Shown here piece by piece: positions 456-7,501 of a stretch of DNA of 64,000 nt. Under the pieces are notes generated by a model, which worked only from the letters and a program-made list of their open reading frames with translations, did not search any database and was not told where the DNA came from. Within the stretch, counting starts at the first letter, position 1. Each line of letters starts with the position of its first letter. The position numbers and the translations under genes are program-made. The stretch is taken from assembly GCA_022772735.1 (NCBI GenBank), contig JALEZD010000008.1, positions 1 through 64,000 of the forward strand. The letters run 5' to 3'. Source of the DNA: Erysipelotrichaceae bacterium (GTDB taxonomy: Bacteria; Bacillota_I; Bacilli_A; Erysipelotrichales; Erysipelotrichaceae).

Positions 456-497
456 ATGAATACTAACTTATTTTCTTATTTTTATTTTTACTTTTAG
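456..497 (+). CDS. Aromatic operon leader peptide MNTNLFSYFYFYF
   Basis: A 13-codon frame starts at ATG 456, nine bases after a GAGG ribosome site (444-447), and ends at TAG 495-497. Seven of the last eight residues are aromatic: Phe at 6, 9, 11 and 13 and Tyr at 8, 10 and 12, with UUU, UAU and UAC codons. It is followed by alternative hairpins and an intrinsic terminator before aroB. This is the architecture of ribosome-mediated attenuation as in the classical trp and phe leaders, here with codons for Phe and Tyr, the two end products served by this operon. It is too short for automatic gene calling. The control mechanism is an inference; the peptide and terminator are seen directly. Confidence 0.85.
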   Translation: MNTNLFSYFYFYF

Positions 498-511
498 ATA
501 CCAGGGCTCTT

Positions 512-556
512 CTTATAGATGATGGCCCATTTTGAGTTGATGGAATTGTCTATAAG
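512..556 (+). promoter_or_regulatory. Leader RNA hairpin, candidate pause or antiterminator stem
   Basis: CTTATAGA at 512-519 pairs perfectly with TCTATAAG at 549-556, and the helix can continue through 520-523 with 545-548 using two G-U pairs. It lies just downstream of the FYFYF codons, where a stalled ribosome would cover its 5' edge. I could not find a strong competing pairing with the terminator arm, so its exact role is open. Confidence 0.5.
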
Positions 557-578
557 TAATTGTTTAATAAACTATTTA

Positions 579-609
579 CCATATGGACAACCATATGGCT
601 TTTTATTTT
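579..609 (+). terminator. Intrinsic terminator in the aro leader (attenuator)
   Basis: CCATATGG (579-586), loop ACAA, CCATATGG (591-598), then CTTTTTATTTTA. The 8-bp perfect stem and U-rich tail lie between the leader peptide and aroB, so this is a premature terminator inside the operon leader rather than an operon end. Confidence 0.85.
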
Positions 610-645: not shown

Positions 646-1638
646 ATGGAATTAAATATAAATTGTAATCAAGAAAAATATAAAATAATTCTAGAAAAAG
701 GAATTATTAATAAAATTGGTGAATACATAAATTTAAATAGAAAAGTTGCTTTAATAAGTGATGAAGGTGTTCCTGAGCAATATATTACTGCAATAAAATC
801 TCAATGTAATAATTGTTTGACAATTATTTTAAAACAAGGTGAAATTTCTAAAAGTTTTGAAACGTTTGAATTTTGTTTAAAAGAATTAATTTCAAACAAT
901 TTTACAAGAAATGATTTGATTATTGCGCTTGGTGGTGGTGTTGTTGGTGATTTAGCAGGATTTGTAGCTTCAAGCTACATGAGAGGTATTGATTTTATCA
1001 ATGTTCCAACAACTACGCTTTCTCAAATTGATAGTAGTATTGGTGGAAAAGTAGGAATAAATGTAAATAAAATAAAAAATTGTGTCGGAGCTTTTTATCA
1101 ACCTAAGTGTGTATTTATTGATTTTGATGTTTTAAAAACATTAAATAAAAGATTATTTAATGAAGGTCTTGTTGAGGCTATTAAAGCAGGATTGATAATG
1201 GATAAAGAATTATTTGAAATGTTTGAGAGTGAACAATTAGATATAGAAAAAATAATTTACAAATCATTAGTTGTAAAAAAATATTTTGTAGAAAAAGATG
1301 AAAAAGAAATGCATGAAAGAAAGATTTTAAATTTTGGACATACAATTGGACATGCATATGAAAGCTATTATGGTCTTAAAAAATTTCACCACGGTGAATG
1401 TGTTGCAATGGGTATGATGAAAATTATTGATAATGAAAAAATAAAAAATAGATTAGAAAATATATTAAAAAAATTAGATATACCGACAAGTAATACTGCA
1501 AATAAAGAAGAAATATTTGAGTATATAAAAAATGATAAAAAAGCATTTTCTGATAAAATATCTATAATAAAGCTAAAAGAAATTGGTTGTGCATTTATTG
1601 AAGAGATTGAACTAGAAAGATTGAGGGATATTTTATGA
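646..1638 (+). CDS. aroB: 3-dehydroquinate synthase
   Basis: Converts DAHP to 3-dehydroquinate, step two of the shikimate pathway, using NAD and a divalent metal. The 330-residue product has the NAD-binding GGGVVGDLAGF segment (about residues 96-106), the substrate loop PTTTLSQIDSSIGGK, and the metal-binding regions EAIK and FGHTIGHAYE plus FHHGE. ATG 646 is preferred over the in-frame ATG 619 because TTGGAGG lies just upstream of 646 and nothing comparable precedes 619. It is the first structural gene after the leader peptide and overlaps aroC by four bases (ATGA), so it is translationally coupled. Length is slightly shorter than the usual 350-360. Confidence 0.97.
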   Translation: MELNINCNQEKYKIILEKGIINKIGEYINLNRKVALISDEGVPEQYITAIKSQCNNCLTIILKQGEISKSFETFEFCLKELISNNFTRNDLIIALGGGVVGDLAGFVASSYMRGIDFINVPTTTLSQIDSSIGGKVGINVNKIKNCVGAFYQPKCVFIDFDVLKTLNKRLFNEGLVEAIKAGLIMDKELFEMFESEQLDIEKIIYKSLVVKKYFVEKDEKEMHERKILNFGHTIGHAYESYYGLKKFHHGECVAMGMMKIIDNEKIKNRLENILKKLDIPTSNTANKEEIFEYIKNDKKAFSDKISIIKLKEIGCAFIEEIELERLRDIL

Positions 1639-2741
1639 AAAATTCTATAGGAAATAATATTATACTGACAGTATTTGGGGAATCACATGGTGAATTTGTC
1701 GGAGCAACTATTGATGGTTTTCCTGCTGGTATACAAATTGATATAGATTATGTTAACAAAGAGATTGCTAAAAGAAAGGCTGTTGGAAAAATTTCAACAC
1801 CAAGAAAAGAAGAAGATGAAATAAAAATAATTAGTGGGGTTTTTAATGGATTTTCAACTGGTACTCCAATAACGGTGATTATCAAAAATAATAATGTTAA
1901 TTCTAAAGATTATGAAAAAACAAAAAATATTTTAAGACCAGGACATGCAGATTTTACCGCAAATGAAAAGTATTTTGGTTTTCAAGATTATAGGGGTGGA
2001 GGACATTTTAGTGGTAGAGTTACTGTGGGAATTGTTGCTCTTGGTGCAATATGTAAAAAAGCACTTTTAGATAAAAATATTAAAATTGCTACACATATCA
2101 AACAGTTAAATAATATAAGTGATGTAGACTTTGATGAGGATTTTGAAAAACAAATTGATAAATTAAATAATATTAATTTTGCAGTTATAGATGATAATGT
2201 GCAAGAAGAAATGATTAAGAAAATTGAGGATATTCGAGATAGTAAAAATTCTGTTGGAGGAATTTTAGAAACTATTGTAATAAATCTTCCATCTGGACTT
2301 GGTGATCCTATGTTTGATAGTGTTGAAGGATGTATAAGTAAAGCATTATTTGGAATTGGAGCAATAAAAGGTATTGAATTTGGCGATGGGTTTAAATTTG
2401 CAAATATGCTTGGCTCAGAATCTAATGATAGTTTTATAATAGTTGATAATAAAATAAAAACTAAAACAAACCATAATGGAGGAATAAATGGTGGTATAAC
2501 AAACTCTATGCCACTCATTATTAAAACAGCAATAAAACCAACACCATCAATTTCTCTTAAACAAAAAAGTGTTGATATTAATTTAAATGAAGAAGTTGAT
2601 CTTGAAATTAATGGTAGACATGATCCATCAATAATACATAGGGTTAGAGTGGTAGTAGATAGTATTATTTCTATAGTTATTATGGATTTGATTGTTACAA
2701 GATTTGGTCAAAAATGGAGCGAAATTTTATGCGAGGATTAA
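1635..2741 (+). CDS. aroC: Chorismate synthase
   Basis: Final shikimate step: EPSP to chorismate, needing reduced FMN. The 368-residue product has the N-terminal GESHG motif, the RPGHADFTAN and DYRGGGHFSGR signatures that bind FMN and substrate, and NHNGGINGGI near the C-terminus, all typical and uninterrupted. Its ATG overlaps the aroB stop (ATGA), and its own 3' end overlaps the start of aroE-aroK by 13 bases. A reduced-flavin source is not encoded in the operon. Confidence 0.97.
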   Translation: MKNSIGNNIILTVFGESHGEFVGATIDGFPAGIQIDIDYVNKEIAKRKAVGKISTPRKEEDEIKIISGVFNGFSTGTPITVIIKNNNVNSKDYEKTKNILRPGHADFTANEKYFGFQDYRGGGHFSGRVTVGIVALGAICKKALLDKNIKIATHIKQLNNISDVDFDEDFEKQIDKLNNINFAVIDDNVQEEMIKKIEDIRDSKNSVGGILETIVINLPSGLGDPMFDSVEGCISKALFGIGAIKGIEFGDGFKFANMLGSESNDSFIIVDNKIKTKTNHNGGINGGITNSMPLIIKTAIKPTPSISLKQKSVDINLNEEVDLEINGRHDPSIIHRVRVVVDSIISIVIMDLIVTRFGQKWSEILCED

Positions 2742-3958
2742 TTGGACACCCATTAGGACATAGTTATTCAAAAATTATACATGAACAATTTATTAACAAA
2801 GAATATAAACTTTATGATATTGATGAAAACAAAATGATTGAAGTTTTATCAAATAAAGAAATTGATAAAGTTAATGTTACTATTCCATACAAAATTAAAG
2901 TTATTAACTATTTAGATGAACTAACCGATATTGCTAAAAAATTAAATTCAGTAAACTGTATTAAAAATAAAAACGGTATTTTAATTGGTCATAATAGTGA
3001 TTACGATGGTTTTTTGTGGATGTTAAAAAATAATTGTATTAACCTAAATAACAAAGTTGTAGCAATACTTGGTAGCGGTGGTGCAAGTAAATCTGTATAT
3101 CATGCAGCTAAATCTCATAATGCAAAAGAAATTTATATTGTTAGTAGAAATAGTGATGATAATAAAGTTTCATATGATGATTTGAAAAAGTTGAATATAC
3201 AGTGTTTAATTAATACAACACCTGTAGGAATGTATCCCAATATTGATGAAAATATAGTTGATTTAAATACTTTAAAAAATTTAGAGATTGTTATTGATAT
3301 AGTATATAATCCATTTAATACGCAACTTATTGTAAATGCAAAAGAAAAAGGTATTAAAGCAATAGGTGGTATTGAAATGCTTGTTGCACAAGCGAAAAGT
3401 GCAATAGAATTTTTTGACGAAGTAGAAATTGATGATTGTAAGGTTAATGAAGTTGTAAATTATATAAAATCACTAAAACAGAATTTAGTATTGATTGGTA
3501 TGCCTTCTTCTGGTAAGACATCTATAGGCAAGCTTATTTCTGAAAAATATGATTATAAACTAATTGATATTGATGAACTTATTGAAGATAGAATAAATAT
3601 GAAGATAAAAGATTATTTCTCGTTATTTGGAGAAGATAGTTTTAGAAAAATTGAATCTGATATTATAAAAGAAATACAAAAAGTAACTCATCATGTTATT
3701 TCATGTGGTGGAGGAGTTATTAAAAATAGTGAAAATATGAAGTTTTTAAGAAAAAATGGATTAATAATTATGATTGATAGAGATATTGATAAAATGGTAA
3801 TTTCTAATGAAAGACCTTTATCAAAAAATATAAATGATTTAAAAAAATTATATATAGAAAGATATGATTTGTATAAAAAGTATAGTGATATTACATTTGA
3901 AAACAATGACAGCATAGAAAATTTATTAGAAAAAATTAAGAGGGAAATAATTTTATGA
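2729..3958 (+). CDS. Shikimate dehydrogenase - shikimate kinase fusion
   Basis: A 409-residue bifunctional enzyme. Residues 1 to about 245 are AroE: substrate-binding GHPLGHSYSK, catalytic Lys55 in VTIPYK, Asp91 in NSDYDG, and the dinucleotide fold LGSGGASK. Residues about 252-409 are AroK: P-loop GMPSSGKT (257-264), DxD-type IDIDELIED, CGGG for shikimate binding and the RPL lid Arg. The fused product would reduce dehydroshikimate and phosphorylate shikimate in one chain. ATG 2729 is chosen over ATG 2714 because GGAG at 2716-2719 is properly spaced for 2729. The frame is open across both domains, so this is a true fusion. aroE-aroK fusions are known in some low-GC lineages but two separate genes are the more common arrangement. 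Confidence 0.93.
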   Translation: MRGLIGHPLGHSYSKIIHEQFINKEYKLYDIDENKMIEVLSNKEIDKVNVTIPYKIKVINYLDELTDIAKKLNSVNCIKNKNGILIGHNSDYDGFLWMLKNNCINLNNKVVAILGSGGASKSVYHAAKSHNAKEIYIVSRNSDDNKVSYDDLKKLNIQCLINTTPVGMYPNIDENIVDLNTLKNLEIVIDIVYNPFNTQLIVNAKEKGIKAIGGIEMLVAQAKSAIEFFDEVEIDDCKVNEVVNYIKSLKQNLVLIGMPSSGKTSIGKLISEKYDYKLIDIDELIEDRINMKIKDYFSLFGEDSFRKIESDIIKEIQKVTHHVISCGGGVIKNSENMKFLRKNGLIIMIDRDIDKMVISNERPLSKNINDLKKLYIERYDLYKKYSDITFENNDSIENLLEKIKREIIL

Positions 3959-4974
3959 TAATTACATTAAAAAAAGATGCATTACAAAATGAAATAGATT
4001 TACTAATAGATGAATTAGAAAAACTTGGAATAATAGTTAATTTAATTCAAGGGAATAATTTTAATGTTTTAGGGTTAGTTGGAGATACATCTAAAGTTGA
4101 TGAACAAAGATTAAAAGCCTATGAATGGATTAAAGATGTTACAAGAATTGCAGCACCATATAAACTAGCTAATAGAATGTTTCATCCAGAAGATACAATT
4201 GTAGATGTATCCGGAATAAAAGTTGGAGGAAATAATCCAATAGTAATAATTGGTGGACCATGTGCAGTAGAGGGTTTAGAGCCAATTATAAGCGTTGCAA
4301 ATAAGGTTAAAGATGCTGGAGGTGTGATGCTTAGAGGTGGTGCATATAAACCTAGAACATCACCTTATGCTTTTCAAGGTATGGGATATGAAGGGATTCT
4401 TGCGATGAAAGAAGCATCAAATAAAACAAAATTACCTATTGTTAGTGAACTTATGAGTGCTGACAAAATTGATGAATTTGTGGAAAATGTAGATTTAATT
4501 CAAATTGGTGCAAGAAATATGCAAAATTTTGATTTATTAAAAGCAGTAGGGAAAATAAACAAACCAATACTTTTAAAAAGAGGTTTATCAGCAACTATTG
4601 AAGAATGGATAATGTCTGCTGAATATATTATGGCAGCTGGAAATCCAAATGTAATATTGTGTGAAAGGGGAATAAGAACTTTCGAAAAATACACAAGAAA
4701 TACTTTAGATTTAGCAGTTATTCCAATTATTAAAGAAAGAACTCACTTACCAATTATTATTGATCCTTCTCATGCAGCTGGAGATTATAAATTGATAGAA
4801 TCAATTTCACTTGCTGCAATTGCAGCTGGTGCAGATGGGTTAATTATTGAAGTTCATGAAAATCCATCATGTGCTTGGAGTGATGGTGCACAATCTTTAA
4901 AGCCAGAGAAATTTAAAACACTTATTGAAAAAGCAAAGAAAGTTGCCAATGCTGTTGATAGGGAAATTTTATGA
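3955..4974 (+). CDS. aroF: DAHP synthase with N-terminal regulatory domain (class I-beta type)
   Basis: First committed step: PEP plus erythrose 4-phosphate to DAHP. The 339-residue length and layout match the Thermotoga-type enzyme: residues 1 to about 70 form a ferredoxin/ACT-like regulatory domain, then the TIM-barrel core with GGPCAVEG, RGGAYKPRTSPYAFQG, QIGARNMQN, LLKRG and DPSHAAG, supplying the PEP, phosphate and metal ligands (Cys, His, Glu, Asp). In that family the N-terminal domain gives feedback inhibition by Tyr or Phe; this is consistent with a Phe/Tyr-sensing leader upstream, but not shown here. It overlaps the aroE-aroK stop by four bases. Named aroF by Bacillus-style use; aroA or aroG are used elsewhere. 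Confidence 0.94.
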   Translation: MIITLKKDALQNEIDLLIDELEKLGIIVNLIQGNNFNVLGLVGDTSKVDEQRLKAYEWIKDVTRIAAPYKLANRMFHPEDTIVDVSGIKVGGNNPIVIIGGPCAVEGLEPIISVANKVKDAGGVMLRGGAYKPRTSPYAFQGMGYEGILAMKEASNKTKLPIVSELMSADKIDEFVENVDLIQIGARNMQNFDLLKAVGKINKPILLKRGLSATIEEWIMSAEYIMAAGNPNVILCERGIRTFEKYTRNTLDLAVIPIIKERTHLPIIIDPSHAAGDYKLIESISLAAIAAGADGLIIEVHENPSCAWSDGAQSLKPEKFKTLIEKAKKVANAVDREIL

Positions 4975-6236
4975 AAGTTAAAATAATTCCAAATATAAAC
5001 AATAACAAATCTATTAGAATTCCTAGTAGTAAATCAGTTGCGCATAGAAATGTAATTTGTGCAAGTTTATCAAGTGGATTAAGTATTATTGAGAATATTG
5101 ATTTATCAAATGATATAGAAGCAACAATTTCCTGTATGGAAGCTTTAGGCGCAAAAATAAATGTAATAAATAATAAATTATATATTGAAGGTATTAAAGA
5201 CTTTAATATTAAAGATAACCTGATTATTAATTGTGAAGAATCTGGTAGTACTCTTAGATTTTTAATTCCTATATTTGCGCTTTTTGATAAAGAAGTTGTT
5301 TTTAAAGGTAAAGGTAGATTATTGGAAAGACCATTAGATATATATAAAGAAATATTTGATAAACAAGGTTTGCTTTTTTCGTTAGAAAATGATGGACTAC
5401 ATATTAAAGGTCCGATTAAACCAGATGAATTTGTTATAAATGGAAATGTTTCGTCTCAATTTATATCTGGTTTATTATTTGCATTACCACTTTTAAATGA
5501 AGACTCTTATATTAGAATTATCCCTCCATTTGAATCAAAAAGTTATGTTGATATTACACTAGATATTTTAGAAAAATTTGGTATTAAAATAGTTAAAATT
5601 AATAAATATGAATATAAAATATTAAAAAATCAGACTTATACGAGTGGTACTTATTTTACTGAAGGTGATTTTTCACAAATGAGTTTCTTTCTTGCACTTG
5701 GATTAATAAATAGTGAACTAAAGATAGAAGGGCTAAATGCTAATAGTTTACAAGGAGATAAAGAAATAATAGAAATTGTTCGCAAAATGAATGGTAAAGT
5801 CAGTGAAGATTTTAGATGCTTTAAAAGTGATTTAATTTCAACAGAGATAGATTTAAATAATTGTCCTGATTTAGGACCGATAATAATGGCTATTGCAACA
5901 CAGGCTACTGGTAAAACACACATATTTAATGCAAAAAGATTGAGAATTAAAGAATCTGATAGAATTTTTGCAATGGAAAGTGAACTGAAAAAGCTTGGAT
6001 GTAATATTTTAAGTAATTATGATGAAGTTTTTATTGAAGGAAAAACAGAAATTGAAGGTAATGTTGTAGTTGATTCTCACAATGATCATAGAATTGTAAT
6101 GGCTCTTAGCATTTTATCAACTATTGCGAAAAACGCAGTTACAATAGAAAATGCTGAGGCAATTAATAAAAGTTATCCAAATTTCTTTAATGATTTAAGA
6201 AAATTAGGAATAGAGGTTATTGAATATGATATCTAG
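4971..6236 (+). CDS. aroA: 3-phosphoshikimate 1-carboxyvinyltransferase (EPSP synthase)
   Basis: Transfers the enolpyruvyl group of PEP to shikimate 3-phosphate. The 421-residue product has SKSVAHR (shikimate phosphate binding), ESGSTLRF (PEP loop), LLERP, SSQFISGL, PDLGP, RLRIKESDR and NDHRIVMA in the usual order. In the PEP loop the Gly equivalent to E. coli Gly96 is kept, while the position of Pro101 is Phe, as I recall for many clostridial-type enzymes. It starts inside the DAHP synthase stop (ATGA) and its own end overlaps tyrA by 11 bases. Confidence 0.96.
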   Translation: MKVKIIPNINNNKSIRIPSSKSVAHRNVICASLSSGLSIIENIDLSNDIEATISCMEALGAKINVINNKLYIEGIKDFNIKDNLIINCEESGSTLRFLIPIFALFDKEVVFKGKGRLLERPLDIYKEIFDKQGLLFSLENDGLHIKGPIKPDEFVINGNVSSQFISGLLFALPLLNEDSYIRIIPPFESKSYVDITLDILEKFGIKIVKINKYEYKILKNQTYTSGTYFTEGDFSQMSFFLALGLINSELKIEGLNANSLQGDKEIIEIVRKMNGKVSEDFRCFKSDLISTEIDLNNCPDLGPIIMAIATQATGKTHIFNAKRLRIKESDRIFAMESELKKLGCNILSNYDEVFIEGKTEIEGNVVVDSHNDHRIVMALSILSTIAKNAVTIENAEAINKSYPNFFNDLRKLGIEVIEYDI

Positions 6237-7089
6237 AAGTACAAAAATTGCAATAATTGGATTAGGTTTGATTGGTGGTAGTTATGCCAAAGGTTTGTCT
6301 AAATCAAATTATAATATTATTGGAATTGATATTGATGAAGAAACATTAAAGTTTGCAAAAGATTATAAATGGATAAACGAAGGTGGAAATAACCCTGAGT
6401 TAGTTAGTGATGCAGATATTGTGATTTTTGCCCTTTATCCTAGTGATTTTATTGAATGGATAAAAAATAATCAGAAATATTTTAAGAAAAATGCAATAAT
6501 AACTGATGTAACTGGTGTAAAGGAAAGTATAATAAGTTCTATTAATGAAATATTAAGAGATGATGTAGAATTTATTGCTTCTCATCCAATGGCTGGTAAA
6601 GAAGTAAGTGGAATTAAATATAGTGATACAAGTATGTTTAATGTTGCTAATTTTATAATTGTTCCAACAGAAAAAAATACTGAAAAAGCAATTAGTACAG
6701 TAAAAGATATTGCTGAAATTTTGAAGTTTAAAAATATAGTAATACTTCCTCCTAAGGAACATGATTTAATTATTGGATATGTTTCACAATTAACTCATGT
6801 TATTGCAGTAAGTCTAATGAACTGTAGAGATAGCGATAATCTTGTAAATTATACAGGTGATAGTTTTAGAGATTTGACAAGAATTGCTAAAATTAATGAC
6901 AAATTGTGGACAGAGTTGTTTATTTTAAATAAAAATAATCTTATTGATGAAATAGATAGTTTTATACAAACTCTTGAACATTTTAAAAATGCTTTAAATA
7001 TAGAAAATAAAGAAGAAATGAAAAAGCTATTTAATCAATCTACAGAAAGAAGAAAGAGGTTTGATAAAAATGAAACTACTAGTAATTAA
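6226..7089 (+). CDS. tyrA: Prephenate dehydrogenase
   Basis: Oxidative decarboxylation of prephenate to 4-hydroxyphenylpyruvate with NAD, the Tyr branch. The 287-residue product opens with the Rossmann motif GLGLIGGS, followed by an acidic residue at the end of beta-2 (IDIDEE, suggesting NAD rather than NADP), SHPMAGKEVSG, and GYVSQLTHV, where the His serves substrate binding or catalysis in this family. ATG 6226 lies nine bases after AGAGG; a TTG at 6220 is an in-frame alternative. No C-terminal ACT domain is present. Position after aroA in a Phe/Tyr-sensing operon fits. No chorismate mutase is fused or adjacent. Confidence 0.94.
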   Translation: MISRSTKIAIIGLGLIGGSYAKGLSKSNYNIIGIDIDEETLKFAKDYKWINEGGNNPELVSDADIVIFALYPSDFIEWIKNNQKYFKKNAIITDVTGVKESIISSINEILRDDVEFIASHPMAGKEVSGIKYSDTSMFNVANFIIVPTEKNTEKAISTVKDIAEILKFKNIVILPPKEHDLIIGYVSQLTHVIAVSLMNCRDSDNLVNYTGDSFRDLTRIAKINDKLWTELFILNKNNLIDEIDSFIQTLEHFKNALNIENKEEMKKLFNQSTERRKRFDKNETTSN

Positions 7090-7501
7090 TGGTCCAAATA
7101 TAAATATGATTGGTATTAGAGAAAAGAGTATATATGGCGATGTTTCATATGAAGAAATTGTTTCTGAAATAAAAACTTATGCAAAAAGTAAAAATATTGA
7201 AATAAAAGTTAAACAAAGTAATCATGAAGGTGATTTAGTTACATGGATACAAGATGCATATTTTAAAAAATATGATGGAATAATCATAAATCCAGCAGCA
7301 TATACTCATACAAGTATAGCAATCGCAGATGCAATAAAGGCAATTAGTCCTATTCCTGTAATAGAAATACACTTATCTGATATAAGTGATAGAGAAGACT
7401 TTAGAAAAATTTCCTATTGTGCTCCATACTGCATTAAACAAATAAAAGGGTTTGGATACAAAGGTTATTTAATGGCTATTGATGAGTTTTTAAGTTTGTA
7501 A
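7070..7501 (+). CDS. aroQ: Type II 3-dehydroquinate dehydratase
   Basis: Dehydrates 3-dehydroquinate to 3-dehydroshikimate; this fills the step between AroB and AroE and completes the common pathway in the operon. The 143-residue product is normal for the dodecameric type II enzyme: NGPNINMIG at the N-terminus, the catalytic Tyr in SIYGD, Arg in IREK, QSNHEGDLV, INPAAYTHTS, and the EIHLSD..REDFR His/Arg region. ATG 7070 sits ten bases after AGAGG; TTG 7061 is a less likely start. It overlaps the end of tyrA by 20 bases and closes the operon. Confidence 0.95.
   Translation: MKLLVINGPNINMIGIREKSIYGDVSYEEIVSEIKTYAKSKNIEIKVKQSNHEGDLVTWIQDAYFKKYDGIIINPAAYTHTSIAIADAIKAISPIPVIEIHLSDISDREDFRKISYCAPYCIKQIKGFGYKGYLMAIDEFLSL

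Follow-up and report, generated by a model that had tools for sequence, protein, structure and literature searches.

Near one end of the window (the whole stretch of 64,000 nucleotides analysed here) lies a complete shikimate operon that begins with aroB. Its leader region carries a short Phe/Tyr-rich reading frame, several mutually complementary segments and an intrinsic terminator. The features of the locus are as follows.

409-437, + strand: putative sigma-70-type promoter, TTTACA (409-414), 17-nt spacer and TAGTAT (432-437), suggested by a consensus scan (9 of 12 matches)
444-448, + strand: GAGGA, a Shine-Dalgarno-like sequence that would serve the leader peptide, read from the sequence
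456-497, + strand: predicted leader peptide MNTNLFSYFYFYF-stop, with four Phe and three Tyr, from the sequence and from the Phe/Tyr run that all 49 related elements share
488-500, + strand: segment A, overlapping the last codons and the stop codon, predicted partner of B in ribosome-free RNA (minimum free energy fold; swap test, 0 of 5000; covariation)
504-507, + strand: segment 1, GGGC, the 5' strand of helix P2 with partner 525-528, which would lie under a ribosome at the stop codon (sequence, alignment, in silico disruption)
512-528, + strand: segment 2, consisting of A' (512-523) and GCCC (525-528), partner of segment 1 or, in the hairpin of the initial annotation, of B (swap test, 0 of 5000; covariation)
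541-556, + strand: segment 3, or B, which takes A, A' or T as partner, one at a time, and is the 5' strand of the antiterminator (swap tests; covariation)
579-593, + strand: segment 4, or T, the 5' arm and loop of the terminator; antiterminator 582-593/541-554, 12 pairs (swap test; covariation)
579-609, + strand: intrinsic terminator with U tract, arms 579-586/591-598, CCATATGG-ACAA-CCATATGG, U tract from 600 (sequence; alignment)
646-1638, + strand: aroB, first gene of the operon (TIGR01357, 323.9 bits, over the cut-off)
1635-7501, + strand: aroC, an aroE-aroK fusion, DAHP synthase, aroA, tyrA and aroQ, in overlapping or adjacent frames (reading frames, profile matches)

The initial annotation had described a Phe/Tyr-rich 13-codon frame with a ribosome site, and this frame is present: it runs from ATG at 456 to TAG at 495-497, seven of its 13 codons specify Phe or Tyr, and its translation is predicted. 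Among the 146 short frames on the + strand of the window that have a Shine-Dalgarno-like site, it alone contains at least five Phe/Tyr codons per eight. The perfect intrinsic terminator reported ahead of aroB was likewise borne out, being the sole terminator-like site between 200 and 900, where shuffled sequences lead one to expect none. The annotation had also proposed a stable hairpin of 12 pairs, 512-523/545-556. The hairpin exists, with the outer eight pairs (512-519/549-556) perfect and two G-U pairs in the inner part; the best fold of 440-645, however, pairs 488-508 with 524-559 instead. We conclude that this fold and the hairpin are both real alternatives.

Shikimate dehydrogenase and shikimate kinase are fused in one frame of the operon (2714-3958). 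No such leader was seen upstream of pheA, which lies elsewhere in the genome of the window. This genome contains 17 T-box matches, 14 of them over the cut-off, and the genes behind them include tyrS and pheS (T-boxes at G000:C17:192859-193054 and G000:C11:20134-20328) as well as a TrpX-like binding protein. Such a repertoire lends some plausibility to the explanation that a T-box, or a protein acting like TRAP, governs the terminator before aroB. The T-box model, however, gave no match to positions 380-680 even at E 5, and Rfam models gave none in 40 aroB-upstream stretches of relatives, which makes this explanation extremely improbable. Since tyrS and pheS stand behind T-boxes and the biosynthetic operon stands behind a leader peptide, the genome appears to monitor these tRNAs by two different routes.

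Conservation of the codon run and of the pairing segments

The sample comprised 273 Erysipelotrichaceae genomes, 140 of which had an AroB match. The regions upstream of aroB in these relatives were searched, as the initial annotation had advised. The layout of the window, a Phe/Tyr-rich short peptide followed by a GGGC...GCCC hairpin and a terminator, was found there by eye and by pattern in 31 genomes. A covariance model (R1) of the RNA from the last peptide codons onward matched 49 elements in the 273 genomes at E < 1e-7, and 18 of these lay outside the 31. None of these matches keeps the leader RNA without the aromatic run; a Phe/Tyr run ends the short frame in all 49, the 18 new ones included. 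Within the last nine residues both Phe and Tyr occur in 44 of the 49 peptides and Tyr only in five, while Trp occurs in none. The third base is T or C in 317 of the 392 codons that make up the last eight positions of the 49 peptides, a bias that, at the level of sequence, is as expected for coding.

The distance from the start of the last aromatic codon to GGG is 10-12 nt in 26 of the 31 leaders, whereas the start of the stop codon varies from 2 to 9 nt before GGG. The spacing between the codon run and the RNA is thus better kept than the position of the stop codon. Outside the run the peptides have no sequence in common, Phe and Tyr replace each other freely, and the length ranges from 8 to 23 residues. 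These facts bear on the idea of a TnaC-like peptide that, while still nascent, would itself bind a free amino acid and arrest the ribosome. Although a short, hydrophobic peptide would suit such a role, the interchange of Phe and Tyr, the variable length and the absence of anything shared beyond the aromatic run render it highly improbable.

Variants of the arrangement were also seen. In G021 the genes behind the element are DAHP synthase and tyrA, not aroB. A Phe-only version (SFFFFFR-stop) stands before an ABC substrate-binding protein of PF04392 in G208 and G209, two genomes in which an AroB profile match was not found. Within genus g73, G247-G250 (L112, L114, L120, L121) lack the peptide and keep the terminator before aroB, while G246 has both. 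Five R1 matches (G034, G094:C79, G152:C9, G247:C17 and G061) look like chance and were set aside.

In many relatives, L116, L133, L144, L183 and L185 among them, a -10-like box lies a few bases before the ATG of the peptide and there is no ribosome site. Because of this arrangement, the attenuator peptide of such relatives may be translated from leaderless mRNA. The family also has two other classes of leader in which a Phe/Tyr peptide stands ahead of aroB (L005-L008, L011, L013, L014, L131, L141 and others); for these, classes 2 and 3, masked folding of full-length or loop-truncated RNA gave no consistent switch. Phe/Tyr-rich short frames with terminators occur in metagenome-assembled genomes of Clostridia as well, upstream of aroB itself or of frames that lie some kb ahead of it (L078, L080, L081, L082, L087, L092, L107).

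The antiterminator pairing, which the initial annotation had left open, was found between B (541-554) and T (582-593). In the window it comprises 12 pairs, UGG..UUGUCUAUA against UAUGGACAACCA. When each strand was paired with its partner from the same species or with one swapped from another species, the own partner was favoured for B:T (-14.9 vs -11.4 kcal/mol), for A':B (-14.8 vs -11.2 kcal/mol) and for A:B (-8.7 vs -6.6 kcal/mol), and in each case 0 of 5000 permutations were as good. In alignment A2, 87% of the cells of B:T are paired, and 10 cells are changed on both sides against 3.4 in shuffles, a count that is not a probability because the sequences are related. The proportion paired is 81% for A':B and 98% for A:B. 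The terminator helix is paired in 99% of cells, with 27 cells changed on both sides and five pairs showing two-sided changes. Controls in which the partner was slid by 1-3 columns, which preserve relatedness, were at most 50% paired for every helix. On this comparative evidence, B has three mutually exclusive partners, A, A' and T, all conserved with covariation.

Predicted effect of the ribosome on the switch

The folding of the 31 sequences was calculated with the ribosome footprint masked codon by codon, at equilibrium and without kinetics. The mean predicted B:T fraction with the A site at codons -7 to -2 before the stop codon was 0.06, 0.15, 0.23, 0.25, 0.29 and 0.11, and it was at most 0.02 with the ribosome at codon -1 or at the stop codon. 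Aromatic codons occupy positions -7 to -2 in 26, 29, 29, 29, 21 and 27 of the 31 sequences, and codon -1 in 3 of 31. In ribosome-free full-length RNA the terminator is predicted to be complete. Folding with a ribosome in place, which the initial annotation had proposed for 440-645, thus predicts antitermination only on the aromatic codons, and neither at the stop codon nor in the absence of a ribosome. In the window, the expected number of terminator pairs falls from 7.9 to 3.5 with the ribosome two to three codons before the stop codon. Footprints of 9-14 nt gave the same outcome with a shift of about one codon. Disruption of GGGC in silico removed most of the predicted antitermination, and disruption of B removed all of it.

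The antiterminator fraction averaged over the 31 full-length sequences peaks at only about 0.3 at equilibrium. In RNA ending at the terminator loop, B:T was higher in the stall than at the stop codon in 31 of 31 sequences, and higher than in the ribosome-free state in 22 of 31. The window RNA cut at this loop was predicted to form 9.2 B:T pairs unmasked, 9.0 with a stall on the aromatic codons and 7.4 at the stop codon; since B:T is predicted here whether or not a ribosome is present, the basis for the ribosome-free state is the full-length fold.

The following mechanism can be proposed. When the ribosome is absent, A:B would sequester B and the terminator would form. A ribosome stalled on the Phe/Tyr codons would cover A and leave GGGC (504-507) exposed, so that GGGC:GCCC would form and A' would be locked up; with A' locked, the free B would pair with T and transcription would continue. 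A ribosome at the stop codon would cover both A and GGGC, A':B would form, and so would the terminator.

The trp, pheA and his attenuators of E. coli share with the window a short peptide that contains codons for the amino acid under control, helices that exclude one another and an intrinsic terminator. In trp, segment 1 lies under the stalled ribosome, and the antiterminator is 2:3. In the window, in contrast to trp, the stalled ribosome would leave segment 1 free; 1:2 together with 3:4 would read through and 2:3 would terminate, and one segment, B, has three partners. The modelled switch therefore has odd parity relative to trp, as the finishing ribosome, not the stalled one, would uncover the terminator.

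The attenuation by a Phe/Tyr leader peptide that the initial annotation had suggested is supported by several lines of evidence: the codon run is conserved, an antiterminator has been identified, all the alternative helices covary, and codon position agrees with predicted antitermination. It is very probable, judging from comparative sequence and modelling, that the element is a ribosome-mediated transcription attenuator that senses charged tRNA-Phe and tRNA-Tyr and governs the whole shikimate operon plus tyrA. Its control would reach aroB, aroC, aroEK, DAHP synthase, aroA, tyrA and aroQ.

The annotation had further considered such a sensor notable in this lineage, and here the claim of rarity has to be softened. 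His leader attenuators of Firmicutes, including six from Erysipelotrichales, are described in PMC9413887; these six belong to the same taxonomic order as the window and likewise act by leader-peptide attenuation, and they respond to histidine, not Phe/Tyr. According to PMC8632094, uORFC-13-1 places Phe codons and a terminator before aroF in Acholeplasma, with the antiterminator not resolved; judged by this description, it is like the window in having both before a shikimate-pathway gene. Leader peptides have also been noted for hisS/hisZ in Firmicutes (PMC2965389) and reportedly for branched-chain synthesis in Staphylococcus aureus (PMC5794164), and the ilvB motif of Corynebacterium, a former riboswitch candidate, is reported to act as a uORF (PMC11109978; PMC10272879). 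In the literature searched, outside which most subscription papers fall, attenuation of an entire aro operon by Phe/Tyr was not described for Erysipelotrichaceae.

Relation to the trpB motif and to leaders for other amino acids

The trpB motif (RF04312, SRC-39-1) has been published with more than 900 representatives as a strong riboswitch candidate, for which its authors did not rule out an attenuator (PMC11109978). Like the window, it has a hairpin whose right-hand strand serves as the antiterminator, followed by a terminator; the motif as published does not include the upstream peptide or segment 1. The A':B hairpin and the terminator of the window align to the whole RF04312 model (1-107), with the antiterminator in the right shoulder of the P1 hairpin. 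Positions 512-609 score 30.5 bits (E 0.015 in 301 bases), below the gathering score of 59, and the window is therefore not filed as a member. The leader of G246 reaches 43.8 bits.

Sub-threshold RF04312 matches were taken from Bacilli and Clostridia (n = 28), and 22 of them follow a short frame with a codon run that would suit the gene behind it. Phe/Tyr leaders precede sodium-dependent transporters, TrpX-like or related ABC transporters and BrnQ-like carriers. Nine leaders from Clostridia (L260, L261, L263, L265, L269, L272-L275) carry HHH or HHHHH and a trpB-like RNA before hisZ, and these share the layout of the window; in its accessible part, PMC9413887 does not link the His leaders to the trpB motif. 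Two Leu leaders (L266, RVLLLLAELL; L278, RVLLLADLF) stand with a trpB-like RNA before a second type of sodium-dependent transporter. The matches L234, L255, L257, L258, L267, L270, L276 and L277 lack a suitable leader and appear to be spurious.

A comparison of 21 of the 22 showed a strong antiterminator between segments 3 and 4 in every one and, in most, a long helix between segments 1 and 2, the first strand of which is located upstream of the motif as published. Both pairings were stronger with the own partner than with swapped ones (0 of 5000 for both). Full-length masked folding was dropped for these RNAs, as the terminator nearly always wins at equilibrium and little contrast is left; they were folded ending at the terminator loop, the decision point. 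There, the mean number of antiterminator pairs in the Phe/Tyr group was 10.0 in the stall vs 4.3 at the stop codon vs 6.2 ribosome-free, and the corresponding values in the His group were 7.2, 2.3 and 5.9. Masked folding showed no contrast for L261, L271 and L278.

Bona fide members of RF04312 were also examined, few in number, namely two: L282 (a Fusobacterium vincentii record; 2427-2618) at 68.5 bits and L283 (2962-3148) at 69.8 bits. Both RNAs are preceded by a clear ribosome site and by a peptide that contains two Trp, MKQILTTTMRYWQNWHR-stop and MTQLSNVKEMHQSWQNWRR-stop, which end in WQNWHR and WQNWRR. No obvious amino acid gene was seen within 1.7 kb downstream in L282. L289, below the threshold, has NWRSWRR-stop, and a stall at either of its Trp codons is predicted to give about 10 antiterminator pairs vs 1.6 at the stop codon and 1.9 ribosome-free. 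L283, L288 and L289 come from unverified 'phage' records in which this bacterial gene for a TrpX-like transporter is present, and pattern scans of viral contigs found no trpB-motif cores.

RF02863, the Enterococcus 'sRNA_2410', is catalogued as a small RNA gene, and the window has no match to it. In L284 (817-1045) and L288 (788-1034) this RNA follows or overlaps peptides ending in AYFSYFR-stop and FYFSYFR-stop, and the gene behind it encodes a TrpX-like ABC transporter binding protein; here and elsewhere, the TrpX names rest on scores below the NCBIfam cut-off. In these two records RF02863 is probably an attenuator, not a free small RNA. Since Trp, His, Leu and Phe/Tyr leaders precede RF04312 and RF02863 RNAs, and the two members above the gathering score have WQNW, the trpB motif probably works as a leader-peptide attenuator for Trp. 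The literature searched, with most subscription papers outside it, did not report the trpB motif as such.

These observations also bear on the explanation that the RNA of the window is a metabolite-binding riboswitch, as proposed for the trpB motif, and that the short frame is incidental. The published status of RF04312 (PMC11109978) and the weak match of the window speak for it. The codon run, however, is kept in 49 of 49 elements at a near-fixed spacing to GGG, related RNAs carry runs of other amino acids according to the gene that they regulate, and a large conserved aptamer core is absent; we consider this explanation very improbable.

The likeness to the trpB motif may have arisen by convergence, as any attenuator of this size has a hairpin and a terminator, and a common origin with RF04312 is then not needed. 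The score of the window below the gathering score (30.5 vs 59) is in keeping with convergence, and attenuators may arise repeatedly (PMC2965389). Against it stand the G246 element, with 43.8 bits at E 4.8e-5 over a genome, and the features common to many of both groups: AGATA just behind the last regulatory codon, the sequence TATCTA within B and the order of the pairings. Convergence is a substantial possibility that falls somewhat short of an even chance. We incline, by a little, to the reading that one modular attenuator family spans Erysipelotrichaceae, other Bacilli, Clostridia and Fusobacteria, with the trpB motif and the Enterococcus 'sRNA_2410' as members; the switch would be constant, and the codon run (Phe/Tyr, Trp, His or Leu) would follow the gene.

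The analysis gives a full pairing model of how the supply of Phe and Tyr would control an entire shikimate operon in Erysipelotrichaceae. As a single case, this is a known kind of attenuator, and its interest comes from the parity of the switch and from the link to RF04312. That link offers a testable answer to what the trpB motif senses: charged tRNA-Trp, by way of the peptide just upstream, and not a small molecule. If this is true, ligand searches for the trpB motif would be misdirected, and the specificity of such leaders would be readable directly from their codons.
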